A stretch of DNA of 36,802 nt from an uncultured Gammaproteobacteria bacterium (lineage in GTDB: Bacteria; Pseudomonadota; Gammaproteobacteria; Pseudomonadales; Litorivicinaceae): contig CAJXNQ010000017.1 in NCBI GenBank assembly GCA_913057215.1, positions 1 through 36,802 on the forward strand. The letters are read 5' to 3'. A program made the translations under genes and the position numbers. Below, piece after piece: positions 8,272 through 34,411 of this stretch (its first letter is position 1; each line of letters starts with the position of its first letter). Under the pieces are notes generated by a model. The model was not told the DNA's origin and ran no database searches. It saw nothing but the letters and a program-made list of their open reading frames with translations.

Positions 8272-9252
8272 ATGACACACGAAATCTTGACTGATCGGTT
8301 TGGTCGATCGTTCCCGTATTTGCGGTTATCAGTCACGGATGTCTGCAACTTCAAATGTTCGTATTGTTTACCTGATGGCTATGAGGGTGATCCAGACGGG
8401 TTCCTCGCAGTCGATGAGATTCGGAGATTGGTCGCAGGGTTTGCAGAGCTCGGTACGCGTAAAATTCGTTTGACCGGGGGAGAGCCGACACTTCGTAAAG
8501 ATTTCATCGATATTGCGCGGGTTGTGTCTTCAACACCTGGGATCGAAACGGTGGCAATGACCACCAATGGATATAAGTTACCTCAGCGTGCGCAGCAGTT
8601 TTTCGATGCCGGCGTGTCTGCGATCAATGTCTCGATTGATGGCTTGACTCCACAGAAATTTGAATTAATCACTGGCAAGAACCGGTTTGAAGAAGTGATG
8701 GAAGGCCTCGCACTGTGCCATGAAATCGGTTTTTCGCCCGTCAAAGTCAATGCGGTGTTACTGAAAGACCTCAATCACACTGAACTGGACGACTTCATCC
8801 GTTGGGCCGGTGAAGGTATCAATTTGCGATTCATCGAATTGATGGAAACCGGTGACAACACTGCATATTTCGAAAAGCATCATCTCTCGGGTGAGATTCT
8901 TGTGAAGAAACTTGAGTCTGAGGGCTGGATTGAGGCGCCACGTGAGGCTATGGCCGGGCCCGCTCGGGTTTGGAAACATCCAGATCGGCCGGGAAGTGTT
9001 GGATTGATTGCGCCCTATTCAAAAGATTTTTGCACCACCTGCAACCGATTGCGCGTGTCCGCCAGAGGTGGTCTGCACCTGTGTTTGTTTGGTGATGGGG
9101 GGCATGATCTTCGCCCCTATCTGCAGCGCGACTGCGACAAAGACGCGCTCAAAGAAACGATCTGTCAGTTACTGGATCTGAAAGTTGCCGGCCATGGACT
9201 GCATGAACACGACACAGGCGCAACTCCACACTTTGCATCCATTGGGGGCTAG
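8272..9252 (+). CDS. moaA: GTP 3',8-cyclase MoaA
   Basis: A 326-residue radical-SAM enzyme that, with MoaC, converts GTP to cyclic pyranopterin monophosphate. The N-terminal SAM cluster is CNFKCSYC (C25, C29, C32). The C-terminal substrate-binding cluster uses C254 and C257 in CTTCNRLR plus C271. The protein ends in the conserved GG tail needed by MoaA. I chose the ATG at 8272 over 8257 because it has a GGGG ribosome-binding site and gives the usual short lead before FPYLRLSVTD. The 58-base gap after moeA shows no Moco riboswitch or terminator. Confidence 0.97.
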   Translation: MTHEILTDRFGRSFPYLRLSVTDVCNFKCSYCLPDGYEGDPDGFLAVDEIRRLVAGFAELGTRKIRLTGGEPTLRKDFIDIARVVSSTPGIETVAMTTNGYKLPQRAQQFFDAGVSAINVSIDGLTPQKFELITGKNRFEEVMEGLALCHEIGFSPVKVNAVLLKDLNHTELDDFIRWAGEGINLRFIELMETGDNTAYFEKHHLSGEILVKKLESEGWIEAPREAMAGPARVWKHPDRPGSVGLIAPYSKDFCTTCNRLRVSARGGLHLCLFGDGGHDLRPYLQRDCDKDALKETICQLLDLKVAGHGLHEHDTGATPHFASIGG

Positions 9253-28399: not shown

Positions 28400-30514
28400 G
28401 TGAGTGTGTTAACCGACGCCACCAAGCAAAGTATTCAGGCTTTGTATCGAGACTTTTTGACGGCCAAGGGTTTGAAACCCCGTTTGGGCCAGAAGCAAAT
28501 GATCGCTGAGGTGGCCCGAATCCTCAACCGGATGGGCGATGAATCCAGTCCGCCGATTGGGCTCATTGAAGCGGAAACCGGGACCGGTAAGACCTTGGCC
28601 TATCTCATTGGCGCGCTGCCGGTTGCGCTTGAGTTTAAAAAACCATTGGTCATTGCCACGGCAACGGTGGCATTACAGTCGCAGATCGTTGAAAAAGACT
28701 TGCCTGCGCTTCTTGATGCAACAGATCTCATGCTGACCTGGGCGCTCGCCAAGGGTCGCAGGCGTTATCTGTGTCCTCTCAGACTTGAAACGGCTTTGGA
28801 AACCGTCACTGGAGCGGATGCGCTGTACCCAGATGAGTTAACGCTGGTCTTGGATGCCGATGAACGAACCTTTGTGGAGCATCTGAGTCGTGCTTGGATT
28901 GATGGTACATGGGCAGGTGACATGGACCAGATCCCTGAGAGTATCCCAGACACGGTACGCCAAGCCGTAACAACAGATCATCGTCGCTGCCAGGGTCGCC
29001 AATGCCGCAGTTTTTCAGTCTGCCCTTATTTTAATGCGCGGGAAACCTGGCTTGAGACCGACGTCTTGGTCATCAATCATGATCTCCTCATGTCAGATTT
29101 GAAACTCGGCGGCGGGGTGATCTTGCCACCGCTTGAAGAGATCGTGCTGGTCATTGACGAAGCACATCAGTTGGCCAGTACAGCGGCGGATCAATTCACA
29201 GATCAGATTCGGATTGCACAATGCCTTGGTGCGATAAAAACGCTCGAACGTGTTGTCAATGCCATTCAGACGCAGATTCCAGGAGATCATCGATTGAGCA
29301 GTGATCTGCGCGCGCTGCCGCCTGACTTGGATCGACTGGGTCACCTGATTGCGCAATGGGGCAGAGATACACTGTCTGCGCTTGCGCATGCGGATGCCTC
29401 GCGGTTTGGCTTTCAAAATGGAGGCTCACGGTATCGATTGGCAATCTCTGAGAGTTTTGCACCGGCAGATGCTGACAGCGTGCAGATCGACCCAGTGTTC
29501 GCAAAAATTCGCAAAATTCAAGATTGGTTGAAAAGCCTCACGACCGAGGGCGAGGGTGTCTTATCTGAGACCGATGCAGAAACACTCAACGAACAATTGG
29601 GGTTGGCGATGGGGCGATTGGATGCGCTGCCTCGCGTGATCATGGGAATGTCGGATGCCAGTTCAGAACAATCCAATGCCCGTTGGATTCGAGTCGGTCA
29701 AGACGTACGGTATGCCACACCCGACGACCCCACAGATCTCGAGTACTGGGTCAGTCCGATGACCCCAGCAGACGCACTGGCTGAGCAACTGTGGGGGCGC
29801 ATTGGGGGTTGTATTCTCACATCTGCGACCCTTGCAAATCGGGGTCAATTTGATGTGGTTGCGCGGGCGCTTGGCATTGCCGAGTATTCGAGTCTGTGCG
29901 TTGAGGGTGCGTTTCACTATGCGAGCCAAGGTCGATTGGTAATCCCTGATGAGGCAGGGGATCCGCGCGATGAGACAGCGCACGCCGGTCGTATCGCCAA
30001 TTACTTGGATCAACGGTGTGACTCCAAGGCTGGCATTTTGGTCTTATTTACCAGCTGGCGGTTACTGTTTCAGGTCGAGGAGTTACTCAGCCGAGAGACA
30101 CGTGACACCGTCCTAGTGCAAGGAAGCCAGTCACTCAGCACGCTCCTTGAAAACCATGAAAACAAGAGAGTGAATGGACAAACATCCATGTTATTCGGAT
30201 TGCAGTCCATGTCAGAAGGTTTGGACTTGCCGGGCGACTTAGCCAACGAGGTCGTCATTACGCGCTTGCCATTTCAACCGCCGGATGATCCGCGCGAGGC
30301 AACTCTCGCTGAATCTTTAAAACTGCATGGAAAGGACCCGTTTACTGAATTATCGCTGCCTCAGGCAACGATTCGGCTCCGGCAGGCAGTGGGCCGCCTC
30401 ATCCGTTCTGAACACGACCGGGGTCAAGTCACGGTGCTTGATCGCCGTTTGGTGAATACCCGTTGGGGTCGAACCCTGATACAAGAGTTACCAGCATTTC
30501 AAATGGAAGGATGA
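28400..30514 (+). CDS. dinG: ATP-dependent DNA helicase DinG
   Basis: A 704-residue XPD-like superfamily 2 helicase with 5'-3' polarity that unwinds R-loops, D-loops and G4 structures. Walker A is ETGTGKT (59-65). The [4Fe-4S] cluster uses C125, C197, C202 and C208 (CPLRLE, then CQGRQCRSFSVC). DEAH is at 253-256. Motifs V and VI are visible in FGLQSMSEGLDLPGD and QAVGRLIRSEHDRG. It starts with GTG at 28400. In E. coli dinG is part of the SOS response, but I saw no clear LexA box in the short gap to the divergent phosphatase gene. Confidence 0.95.
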   Translation: MSVLTDATKQSIQALYRDFLTAKGLKPRLGQKQMIAEVARILNRMGDESSPPIGLIEAETGTGKTLAYLIGALPVALEFKKPLVIATATVALQSQIVEKDLPALLDATDLMLTWALAKGRRRYLCPLRLETALETVTGADALYPDELTLVLDADERTFVEHLSRAWIDGTWAGDMDQIPESIPDTVRQAVTTDHRRCQGRQCRSFSVCPYFNARETWLETDVLVINHDLLMSDLKLGGGVILPPLEEIVLVIDEAHQLASTAADQFTDQIRIAQCLGAIKTLERVVNAIQTQIPGDHRLSSDLRALPPDLDRLGHLIAQWGRDTLSALAHADASRFGFQNGGSRYRLAISESFAPADADSVQIDPVFAKIRKIQDWLKSLTTEGEGVLSETDAETLNEQLGLAMGRLDALPRVIMGMSDASSEQSNARWIRVGQDVRYATPDDPTDLEYWVSPMTPADALAEQLWGRIGGCILTSATLANRGQFDVVARALGIAEYSSLCVEGAFHYASQGRLVIPDEAGDPRDETAHAGRIANYLDQRCDSKAGILVLFTSWRLLFQVEELLSRETRDTVLVQGSQSLSTLLENHENKRVNGQTSMLFGLQSMSEGLDLPGDLANEVVITRLPFQPPDDPREATLAESLKLHGKDPFTELSLPQATIRLRQAVGRLIRSEHDRGQVTVLDRRLVNTRWGRTLIQELPAFQMEG

Positions 30515-30518
30515 CCCT

Positions 30519-31697
30519 ATGACTCAAATTGCGATTGTGGCAGCGAAACGGACCGCTGTTGGAAGTTTTGGTGGCGGACTTGCCTCGGTCTCGGCTGATG
30601 CGCTTGGTGCCACTGTGATCCGTCAATTACTTGCAGATACTCAGGTTTCAGGCGAAGACATCAGTGAAGTAATCATGGGTCAAGTGCTAACCGCTGGCCA
30701 GGGACAAAACCCGGCGCGGAAGGCAACAATAGACGCCGGTCTTCCAAACACCTGTCCCGCCATGACCATCAACAAGGTCTGTGGATCGGGTTTAAAGGCA
30801 GTCGCGCTGGGCGTTCAGTCGATTCTACTCGGCGACGCTGAAATCGTCATCGCAGGTGGGCAGGAAAACATGAGCCAGTCGGGGCATGTGCTCCTTGGAT
30901 CCCGTGATGGGTTTCGGATGGGCAATGCGTCGCTCGTGGATACCATGCTCAAAGATGGCTTGACTGACACCTTTGGTGGCTACCACATGGGTGTGACGGC
31001 TGAAAACGTCGCAAAGAAATATCAGATTTCCCGTGAAGAGCAGGATGCGTTCGCAGCCGCCTCACAACAAAAAGCCTCCAAGGCGCGTGCTGAAGGCCGC
31101 TTCGCTGATGAGATTGTGCCTGTCATGGTGCCGCAGCGTAAAAAGGACCCCATCGCATTTGAAATCGATGAGTTCATTCGTGACGACGTGACCGCAGAAG
31201 CGCTTGGGAAATTGCGCCCGGCGTTTGATAAAGAAGGGACCGTCACAGCAGGGAACGCTTCAGGGATCAATGATGGGGCAGCTGCCGTGATGCTGATGCG
31301 TGTTGAAAAAGCAGACGCGCTCGGCCTGCCCATTCTCGCGCGTGTTAAAGCCTACGCATCGGCAGGTGTGGATCCGGAAATCATGGGCACAGGACCAATC
31401 CCGGCCACAGAGCGTTGTCTAGAGCGCGCGGGTTGGACGCATGAAGACTTGGATTTGATCGAGGCCAATGAAGCCTTCGCGGCACAGGCAATGGGTGTGA
31501 ATAAAGGATTGGGTTGGGATACCAGTAAGGTCAACGTCAATGGCGGTGCAATCGCAATTGGTCATCCAATCGGCGCCTCTGGCTGTCGCGTGTTTGTGAC
31601 GTTGCTGCACGAAATGCAAAAGCGCGATGCAAAAAAAGGCTTGGCGACCTTATGCATCGGCGGCGGTCAGGGCGTTGCATTGGCGGTCGAACGTTAA
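30519..31697 (+). CDS. Acetyl-CoA C-acetyltransferase (thiolase)
   Basis: A 392-residue biosynthetic-type thiolase that joins two acetyl-CoA to acetoacetyl-CoA, or splits it. The acyl-enzyme cysteine is C88 (NKVCGSGLKAV); the catalytic H349 (IAIGHPIGASGCR) and C379 (CIGGGQGVA) complete the active site. The length is that of AtoB/PhaA-type enzymes. No phaB, phaC or fatty-acid gene is adjacent, so the pathway is open. It starts four bases after dinG with AAGGA, so the two may be co-transcribed. Confidence 0.95.
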   Translation: MTQIAIVAAKRTAVGSFGGGLASVSADALGATVIRQLLADTQVSGEDISEVIMGQVLTAGQGQNPARKATIDAGLPNTCPAMTINKVCGSGLKAVALGVQSILLGDAEIVIAGGQENMSQSGHVLLGSRDGFRMGNASLVDTMLKDGLTDTFGGYHMGVTAENVAKKYQISREEQDAFAAASQQKASKARAEGRFADEIVPVMVPQRKKDPIAFEIDEFIRDDVTAEALGKLRPAFDKEGTVTAGNASGINDGAAAVMLMRVEKADALGLPILARVKAYASAGVDPEIMGTGPIPATERCLERAGWTHEDLDLIEANEAFAAQAMGVNKGLGWDTSKVNVNGGAIAIGHPIGASGCRVFVTLLHEMQKRDAKKGLATLCIGGGQGVALAVER

Positions 31698-31708
31698 TTA
31701 GCGGCGCA

Positions 31709-31761
31709 CATGATCCCTCGTGTACACTCTCGCTTTCGATTAAGCGCTGCGAGGGATCATG
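31709..31761 (+). promoter_or_regulatory. 12-bp inverted repeat covering the rhlB ribosome-binding site and start
   Basis: CATGATCCCTCG (31709-31720) is the exact reverse complement of CGAGGGATCATG (31750-31761). The right arm contains the ribosome-binding site (GAGGG) and the complete ATG of rhlB. Inside the 29-base spacer a smaller stem CGCTT/AAGCG (31731-31735 with 31742-31746) can form. No T run follows, so it is not a terminator for the thiolase gene. Confidence 0.75.
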
Positions 31762-32997
31762 ACTGCATCGAACACCGACACCAACTGGACCATTGAATCG
31801 TTTGACGTGCCACCCGAAGAGGGAAAGGCACGGTTTCATGACTTTGATCTTCCCAAAGCCTTGATGCACGCGATTGAAGATCTTGGGTTTCGGTATGCCA
31901 GTCCAATCCAAGCGGAATCCTTGCCCATCGTGCTCGATGGCGAGGATATCGTTGCCAAAGCGCAAACAGGCACGGGTAAAACTGCTGCGTTTTTAATCGC
32001 CATGATTGATACCTTCTTGAGAGAACCGCTCGATGGGAAGCGACGGACGGGTACGCCACGTGCTTTGATTTTGGCTCCCACACGAGAATTGGTGGTACAG
32101 ATCGCCTCGGATGCTGAAAATCTTTGCAAATACACGCGCTTATCGGTTGTTTCGATTGTCGGTGGCATGGATTATCAGAAACAGCGCGACGATCTGCGGC
32201 AAGCGCCCTGCGACATCATGGTGGCGACTCCTGGGCGGTTGATCGACTTTCTCGGTCAAAACGAGATCAATCTCCGAAAAATTGAGGTTTTGGTTCTCGA
32301 TGAAGCTGATCGGATGTTAGATATGGGGTTTATGCCAGATGTCCGGCGGATCGTTCGGGCCTGTCCGCGCAAAGAGTTGCGTCAAACGCTTCTGTTCTCT
32401 GCCACTTTCACACCACAGATCATCGAGCTCTCCGAGCGATGGACGTTTGAACCGACGCGGATTGAGATCGAACCCGACAACGTTGCCACAGACACAGTTG
32501 AACAATTGGTCTACATCACAACGACCGAGTCTAAATACAGTTTATTGAAAAATCTCATCCTCACGCGTGACTTGAATAAGCTGATGGTGTTCGCAAATCG
32601 ACGTGACTTGTGTCGCAACCTGGTCGATAAACTCACCGCAGATGGCATCGATGCAGCTCTCCTCAGTGGCGAAGTGCCACAGCGCAAACGGATTCAGACC
32701 TTGGATCGGTTCAAAGAGGGTAAGACACGTGTCTTGGTAGCCACGGACGTCGCCGGACGTGGCATTCATATTGATGGCGTGGGACATGTGATCAATTACA
32801 CCCTGCCTGAGGATCCAGAGGATTATGTCCATCGGATTGGCCGCACCGGACGGGCAGGGACAGAGGGCACATCGATCAGTTTTGCCTGTGAAGATGATTC
32901 CTTTATGCTGCCCGACATTGAAGCGTTTATCGGACGCTCACTGCCTTGCCAACAGGCCCCTGAATCATTAATTGCCGAGACCAATGACGGCTCGTGA
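31759..32997 (+). CDS. rhlB: DEAD-box ATP-dependent RNA helicase, RhlB-like
   Basis: A 412-residue DEAD-box helicase. An [20 protein letters not shown]-motif region is followed by Walker A AQTGTGKT (68-75), [22 protein letters not shown] (181-184), SAT near 216, [15 protein letters not shown] and [10 protein letters not shown] near 360. The spacing and flanking residues resemble RhlB, which works with RNase E in the degradosome; a different DEAD-box family member cannot be excluded. It lacks a long basic C-terminal tail. The start lies in a strong inverted repeat that may control translation. selO overlaps its last 14 bases. Confidence 0.9.
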
Positions 32998-34411
32998 TGC
33001 AGTGTCATGGTCGGCTCCCTATCGGGCGCTGCCTGAAGACATATTTTGGAGTCCGGTCAGTCCAGAACCACTCACGGGCGCGTATTGGGTTGATAAAAAT
33101 GAGTCGCTCATCGAAGCGCTGCAACTCGAACCCTGGCTGTCTGATGATCTCATTGATGCGTACGCAGGCAGTACACCTTTAGCTGAGTGGTCGCCGCTTG
33201 CTCAGGTCTATTCGGGCCATCAGTTTGGTCAATGGGCCGGGCAACTCGGCGACGGCCGCGGTCTCTATCTCGGTGTCAGCCAATCTGGTGAACATGCCTT
33301 TGAGTGGCATTTAAAAGGGGCGGGCCAAACTCCGTATTCACGCTTTGGCGATGGCCGTGCAGTGCTCCGGAGTTCGATTCGAGAATACCTCGGCAGTGAG
33401 TACCTGGCTGCACTTGGAGTGCCAACCACGCGTGGGCTTTGTCTGGTTGGCAGTCAAACTCCCGTGCGACGTGAGACCATGGAAACAGGGGCGACACTTG
33501 TCCGCCTCTGTCAAAGCCATCTTCGAATTGGTCATTTTGAGCACTTTTATCACCGGCAAGAGCCTGACCATCTGCGAACGATGATTGAGTTTGCGATCGC
33601 GCAGCTCGATCCAGACCTGTCTGACGTTGCCGACCGGGATGCCTTATTTTTTGAACGTGTACTGAATCGATCCGCCCGCTTGGTCGCGGAATGGATGGCG
33701 ATTGGGTTCGTGCACGGGGTCATGAATACAGACAATACCGCCTTGTCGGGTGAAACATTGGATTACGGACCCTACGGGTTTTTAACGCATTACAATCCAG
33801 ATTTTGTGATCAATCACACGGATCAGACCGGCCGTTATGCGTATGGGCAGCAACCACGCGTGATGCAATGGAACCTCGCATGTCTCGCAGAGACGCTTGT
33901 TGGTTCAGTGTCTGTTGAGACCTTGCAGGGATTGCTAAAGGAATTCCCGGCACGTTACATGCAGGCCTATCAACATTCGATGGCGCGCCGGTTTGCATTT
34001 GCTGAAGATAATCCAGCACTGGCTGAACTGCTGAAGTTGCAGCAAACTGCGTTTGCAAAGCCGGGAACCTACTATCCCGAATCCTTTGCCTTAATCTCTG
34101 GATTTGAAGGGACCTATTTATCTCATGCGGCGGTTGATCGTGATGTGCTCGAGCAAGCGAAACGTCTGTGGGAGCGTGAACATGAGCCAGGATTACGTGG
34201 GATTCAAAACCAAATCACGCCGACGTGGATGCTCAGTCATTGGATGTTGGATCGCGTCATTCAGAGCGCCGAAGACGGTGACTGCGCTCCAATACGACGA
34301 TTACGCCAGGGCATGCATCAGGGTGTATCCCAACAATTACCTGAGGCTGTGCGACTCAACAGTCAACCACCGCCTGCCGATGGCGGGTTTCATTTAAGTT
34401 GCAGTTCATAG
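32984..34411 (+). CDS. selO: Protein adenylyltransferase SelO (YdiU)
   Basis: A 475-residue pseudokinase-fold enzyme that transfers AMP to protein hydroxyls and is linked to redox stress in E. coli. Conserved blocks are [50 protein letters not shown], and [26 protein letters not shown], which holds the metal-binding Asn/Asp. The C-terminus ends LSCSS, with cysteine at the place of the selenocysteine found in eukaryotic SelO. The ATG at 32984 is inside the rhlB end; the ribosome-binding site is weak (GAGA), suggesting coupling to rhlB. Confidence 0.95.

Follow-up and report, generated by a model that had tools for sequence, protein, structure and literature searches.

A conserved hairpin over the rhlB start codon in Litoricola-type bacteria and its possible role as a fold-back insulator

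RNA thermometers such as ROSE and fourU carry a hairpin over the Shine-Dalgarno sequence, with helices that are imperfect and of marginal stability. Transposase genes of the IS10/IS50 type are subject to fold-back inhibition on read-through transcripts. A precedent for fold-back is also found in the leader of the phage T4 gene e (lysozyme), together with those of soc, 49 and I-TevI (PMC3014915). In gene e, long upstream transcripts carry both strands of a helix that covers the start and silences them, and translation occurs from short transcripts of late promoters located just upstream, in which the left strand is missing (PMC3014915). This effect has been shown experimentally and is cited in the review as 100-fold (PMC3014915).

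Here we analysed a window (the whole stretch of DNA, 36,802 nucleotides) that corresponds to contig C17 of the 1.58-Mb assembly G000, whose nearest named relatives include Litoricola sp., Litorivicinus sp. and Gammaproteobacteria bacterium LSUCC0096. The features of the locus are collected in Table 1. The open reading frame assigned to rhlB exceeded the NCBIfam cutoff for RhlB (569.8 vs. 564 bits) and is preceded on the same strand, after a gap of 61 nt, by a thiolase gene, which in turn follows a dinG-type gene of the same strand after only 4 nt; the latter two genes are likely to form one transcription unit. The thiolase was present in 24 of the 111 rhlB loci within the retrieved flank, all of them of the Litoricola type or from its sister genus. 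Regarding the neighbouring genes, the DinG-type protein showed 61-66% identity between species of the genus, an unusually rapid change compared with the 77-95% of three other proteins of the contig, and an open reading frame of the YdiU/SelO family (32972-34411), with a TTG start by mechanical call, shares the last 26 nt of rhlB.

Table 1. Positions of the features around the rhlB start and of the terminators found in the sister genus
Feature	Positions	Strand	Remarks
dinG-type helicase gene	28400-30514	+	ORF and family match
Acetyl-CoA acyltransferase (thiolase) gene	30519-31697	+	ORF and family match; supposed source of read-through
Left arm CATGATCCCTCG	31709-31720	+	Upstream of the -10-like box
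TACACT, putative -10 element	31723-31728	+	Conserved as TANACT, alignment columns 15-20
Small nested stem CGCTT/AAGCG	31731-31735 / 31742-31746	+	Predicted fold, within the loop
Right arm CGAGGGATCATG	31750-31761	+	Carries the GAGG Shine-Dalgarno sequence and the rhlB ATG
GAGG Shine-Dalgarno sequence	31751-31754	+	Within the right arm
rhlB start codon (ATG)	31759-31761	+	Entirely within the right arm
rhlB, DEAD-box RNA helicase	31759-32997	+	ORF and NCBIfam
Sister terminator, L016	1019-1042		Stem of 9 pairs, then T-run
Sister terminator, L017	1405-1425		Stem of 9 pairs, then T-run

A preliminary description of this locus had noted a perfect 12-bp inverted repeat, with the ribosome-binding site and the ATG of rhlB in one arm and a second small stem nested in the loop, and we recovered each of these elements. 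The two 12-bp arms are 100% complementary and 29 nt apart, the left one begins 11 nt after the thiolase stop codon, and the small stem was present in the predicted fold of the window, most relatives being predicted to form other inner loop helices. The 101 nt around the hairpin had a computed folding energy of −33.5 kcal/mol (z of −3.68), a stability equalled by 1 of 200 shuffled sequences. The same description held that the folded hairpin would block translation, and the computed fold of the long transcript, where the Shine-Dalgarno sequence and the start codon lie inside a stable helix, supports an occlusion of the ribosome-binding site.

The reading that we prefer, tentatively and with a probability of about 0.42, is that the hairpin acts as a fold-back insulator which silences rhlB only on mRNA read through from dinG and the thiolase gene. 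According to this model, rhlB would have its own promoter, with the -10 element placed between the arms, and the mRNA initiated there, from about position 31735, would not contain the left arm and would have a more open ribosome-binding site. Polymerase running on from dinG and the thiolase gene would instead produce an RNA carrying both arms, so that the stem would close over the Shine-Dalgarno sequence and the ATG and leave rhlB untranslated; Rho could then end the untranslated stretch. The occluded start in the computed fold of the long transcript was counted in favour of this model.

The repeat exceeds what chance would give, since it was the only perfect one of at least 12 bp with a loop of 15-60 nt in the 36.8-kb window, and 20 windows simulated on base-pair steps contained 3 such repeats (mean of 0.15). 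Among perfect stems covering a chosen start codon, the longest measured 7 bp in the same genome (323 genes, 399 kb) and 10 bp in the relative G001 (327 genes, 400 kb), where it belonged to rhlB itself and was followed by one gene with a stem of 9 bp and one with 8 bp. When any start codon was allowed, stems of at least 9 bp were found in 4 of 323 genes of the first genome (longest, 11 bp) and in 4 of 327 genes of G001 (longest, 10 bp, rhlB included). The 12-bp stem of the window is thus longer than any over the chosen start of 650 control genes, whose starts were called mechanically and in some cases wrongly, and this rarity was counted for fold-back. As a separate observation, a minus-strand gene of G001 starting at position 8670 of locus L154 has its start codon in a perfect, AT-rich 9-bp stem whose arms are 30 nt apart, and it could represent another example of this arrangement.

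In order to follow the hairpin across relatives, as the preliminary description had proposed for the gap between the thiolase gene and rhlB, we searched 22 genomes of the genus (E value of 1e-100); RhlB was found in full or in part in 16 of them and not at all in 6. The leader was complete in 14 of the 16; the contig of L005 begins within the leader, and L032 does not include the gene start. A named collection contributed 11 loci of the genus, all of them repeats of these leaders and none new. The 14 distinct Litoricola-type leaders aligned without gaps over 56 columns, and columns 6-20 (TCCCTCGTGTANACT) were, with the exception of column 17, invariant in 14 of 14 leaders, a conservation that was counted for fold-back. 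The seven core pairs, from 6-48 to 12-42, were all standard in 13 of the 14 leaders, L013 being the exception, and the outer stem pairs varied and were often broken. The loop had a mean identity of 66%, with 1 of its 21 columns invariant. When both arms were searched as an exact pattern, only 7 of 23 genomes gave a match, because several leaders differ by one base or are incomplete. Collectively, these results establish a genuine hairpin that is linked to rhlB and shows conservation within the genus, and the loss of conserved arms among relatives, which would have spoken against the preliminary description, was not seen in either arm.

For comparison, we aligned the regions upstream of three other genes of the contig (14-16 sequences each), drawn from three of the four proteins searched, dinG being left out. 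Their best 15-column windows contained 9, 8 and 12 invariant columns and ran on into the start codon or into coding sequence, compared with 14 of 15 in the rhlB leader, and this contrast was counted for fold-back. The left arm is thus under much tighter constraint than ordinary spacer in these genomes. The pattern of changes nevertheless falls short of proving that pairing is what holds it, and the compensatory changes that the preliminary description had proposed to look for were absent: none of the 13 pairs of the main stem showed a two-sided change in the 14 leaders. In columns 4-12 about five events on the tree break a pair (G4A in L009 and L012 and again in L013, T49C in L008 and L010, T49G in L011, and G46T in L013), whereas about three leave a G-U pair in its place (A5G in L006 and in L015, and C42T in L014 and L015). 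This excess of breaking changes was counted against fold-back.

The same pattern would be expected if the complementarity were a coincidence, the left arm being a constrained part of the promoter, the right arm consisting of the Shine-Dalgarno sequence and the start, and their pairing being idle, since two separately constrained strings would remain complementary without selection on pairing. We consider this doubtful, because a stem of such length over a start is rare and because the three control regions had no comparable invariant block, which suggests that promoters here do not usually fix such a spacer. Moreover, the sister genus keeps GTACACT before rhlB but has no arms, an observation that speaks against coincidence and that was also counted for fold-back.

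Another explanation is that the repeat works as DNA: the arms, about 41 bp apart, would be the half-sites bound by a regulator that represses or activates the promoter between them. The conservation of both arms, at a spacing that is the same in 14 of 14 leaders, agrees with such a dyad, as does the fact that the left change A5G (L006 and L015) and the right change T49C (L008 and L010) are the same change of the half-site, one that a protein could tolerate and that on the right side breaks the RNA pairing. We nonetheless judge it unlikely. The exact 15-base site occurred once, at rhlB, in each of the 14 genomes having it, and within one mismatch there were only three further matches in 25 genomes of the family, read as lying inside coding sequence; by eye, two are presumably antisense of a secB-like start and one of a parA-like gene. 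A 13-base version with two mismatches had 35 matches in the own genome, fewer than the 76 of the reversed control. Further sites of the kind expected for an operator were therefore not found in the genome, although a single-gene regulator or a degenerate site would be compatible with this result. In addition, half of the dyad would lie on the Shine-Dalgarno sequence, and a gap of 29 nt is long for a simple dimer.

Fold-back insulation depends on a promoter located between the arms. In 14 of 14 leaders the TANACT box lies exactly 36 nt ahead of the ATG, and if it is a -10 element, the transcript of rhlB may be assumed to start near position 31735, in which case the left arm would be present only in read-through RNA. 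In 144 more strictly called upstream regions from two genomes, rhlB excluded, 12 occurrences of TANACT lay 25-64 nt before the start and 4 lay at a greater distance (p = 0.008), the corresponding numbers for TGnTAnnnT being 15 and 2 (p = 0.0001); both p values are uncorrected for the 19 patterns tried. The clustering of TANACT was counted for fold-back. A looser count in 271 loosely called regions gave no excess of TANACT with N other than T (26 vs. 33.2). Upstream of genes, GTANACT was found 10 times vs. 12.1 in shuffles in the looser set, and in the stricter set none lay near the start and one far from it, and a simple scan of the window revealed no consensus promoter; these two results were counted against fold-back. 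A transcript start between the arms had been named in the preliminary description as evidence against its own proposal of an RNA switch. The TANACT box predicts such a start, which, if confirmed, would refute a switch on the own mRNA of rhlB, and the hairpin could still act on read-through mRNA.

We also calculated how much energy is needed at 37°C to open the start region. For the window this cost amounted to 16.3 kcal/mol on the read-through RNA and to 7.5 kcal/mol on the RNA from the assumed start. Across the 14 leaders the values ranged from 8.1 to 17.2 kcal/mol and from 1.6 to 7.5 kcal/mol, respectively, and the read-through cost was the higher one in 14 of 14, which was counted for fold-back, bearing in mind that a longer RNA has more pairing partners anyway and that this contrast is known from rhlB leaders alone. 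The read-through cost lay above the 95th percentile of the controls (11.6 and 11.1 kcal/mol) in nine leaders and below it in five. By itself it was not unique, given that 1 of 323 genes of G000 exceeded 16.3 kcal/mol and rhlB of G001 ranked 4th of 326. At 15°C the cost was higher in 14 of 14 leaders, reaching 21.0 kcal/mol in the window.

These calculations bear on the functions proposed in the preliminary description, temperature control or autoregulation by the helicase, and on the wider rival of an RNA switch on the main rhlB mRNA, whose start would lie upstream, with both arms always present and the hairpin opened by heat, RhlB or the degradosome. Autoregulated expression of an RNA helicase is reported for crhR of Synechocystis (PMC3485376), which agrees with such a switch. 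The inner loop helix, as drawn from L003, gave 8 cells changed on both sides vs. 4.3 in shuffles, 22 of 500 of which reached 8. The number of its pairs with two-sided change was 3 vs. 2.6 in shuffles (258 of 500), and versions of the structure slid along the alignment reached up to 4 pairs and 10 cells; since these score as high or higher, covariation of the inner helix is not clear. When loop columns 21-41 were replaced by shuffles, the mean z was −1.0 over the 14 leaders, positive in 3 of 14, which is a weak sign of selection on the loop to pair. A thermosensor is unlikely because the stem is stable by calculation and becomes costlier to open at 15°C, so that no melting within the growth range was computed, and no Rfam family matched positions 31400-32100 at E values up to 1. 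A switch opened by the helicase found no support in the main stem, and the conserved -10-like box lies within the loop. The rhlB gene of the sister genus lies behind a terminator, which means that a promoter must follow the terminator there. Given the stability of the stem, a main stem free of two-sided changes and a -10-like box within the loop, we rejected both the thermosensor and the helicase-opened switch, and a switch on the main mRNA in general seems to us quite improbable.

With regard to fold-back insulation, the sister genus offers the most direct comparison. The same thiolase precedes rhlB in it and the hairpin is absent, and an intrinsic terminator was found in the gap between both genes in the two readable cases (L016 and L017), a third genome, G024, being without the gene start. 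No terminator-like site was detected in this gap in the window or in G001, the two of the 14 leaders that were scanned; the only match, in the window and likewise in G001, was a weak one of 5 pairs inside the thiolase gene. Both the sister terminators and the absence of such a site here were counted for fold-back. The terminator occupies the same position between the same two genes and has the same presumed purpose as the hairpin of the window, which would do its job in this genus. The former stops transcription, whereas the latter, with no T-run after the stem, would stop translation. We also considered the hairpin itself as a thiolase terminator and rejected it on the missing T-run and the loop of 29 nt. 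The opening costs in the sister genus were 8.0 (L016, hairpin-free) and 3.8 kcal/mol, and the value of L016 was counted against fold-back.

A thiolase-less relative, G014, adds a further comparison. Its leader L013, which is the same as L043 of Litorivicinus sp. AH-657-M20, is the only one of 14 with a broken core pair, and its thiolase has been lost from the interval between dinG and rhlB except for a remnant of the last 39 residues adjacent to rhlB (46% identity; L043, 1320-1436). No thiolase homolog was found elsewhere in G014 at an E value of 1e-60 (genome 87% complete). The broken core pair was counted for fold-back; its coincidence with the loss of the thiolase is no more than suggestive, being a single event with a chance of 1 in 14. 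L013 is predicted to fold in another register, with the ATG still paired. Its opening cost (8.2 kcal/mol) is close to that of L010 (8.1 kcal/mol), which has kept the thiolase, and this was counted against fold-back. In G014 the left arm and the TANACT box are unchanged despite the broken stem, in keeping with coincidental complementarity, so that something besides pairing may hold the left arm. The openness of L010, equal to that of G014, and the count of events slightly weakened fold-back insulation and slightly strengthened coincidence.

If fold-back insulation is true, a bacterial housekeeping gene would rely on a fold-back like that of the phage instead of a terminator, a small genome would separate two transcription units at the level of translation, and operon maps based on co-transcription would overstate co-expression. 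A ready comparison is provided by the sister genus with its terminator, this genus of marine bacteria with its hairpin and the one thiolase-less relative with a damaged hairpin. A far more speculative extension, to which we give very little credence, is that the RhlB/RNase E degradosome acts on the folded read-through rhlB mRNA as its substrate, so that fold-back would silence outside transcription and also give RhlB feedback on the dinG-thiolase mRNA. The insulator, which stands where the sister genus has a terminator, would then be coupled to the activity of RhlB itself.

Compared with the described systems, the rhlB leader shares with the ROSE and fourU thermometers a hairpin over the Shine-Dalgarno sequence and differs from them in its perfect 12-bp stem, which by calculation does not melt, and in the absence of an Rfam match. 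With transposase genes of the IS10/IS50 type it shares the pairing of the mRNA start site with upstream sequence upon outside transcription; those are, however, mobile elements protecting themselves, whereas the named neighbours of rhlB are dinG and a thiolase gene. Narrow searches of titles and abstracts revealed no such arrangement in a chromosomal gene or in the literature on rhlB regulation. The resemblance to T4 gene e lies in a start region enclosed in an RNA helix, with both strands on the long transcript. In gene e the effect is experimental and times infection, whereas in rhlB we infer it for a bacterial gene that it would apparently insulate against read-through.
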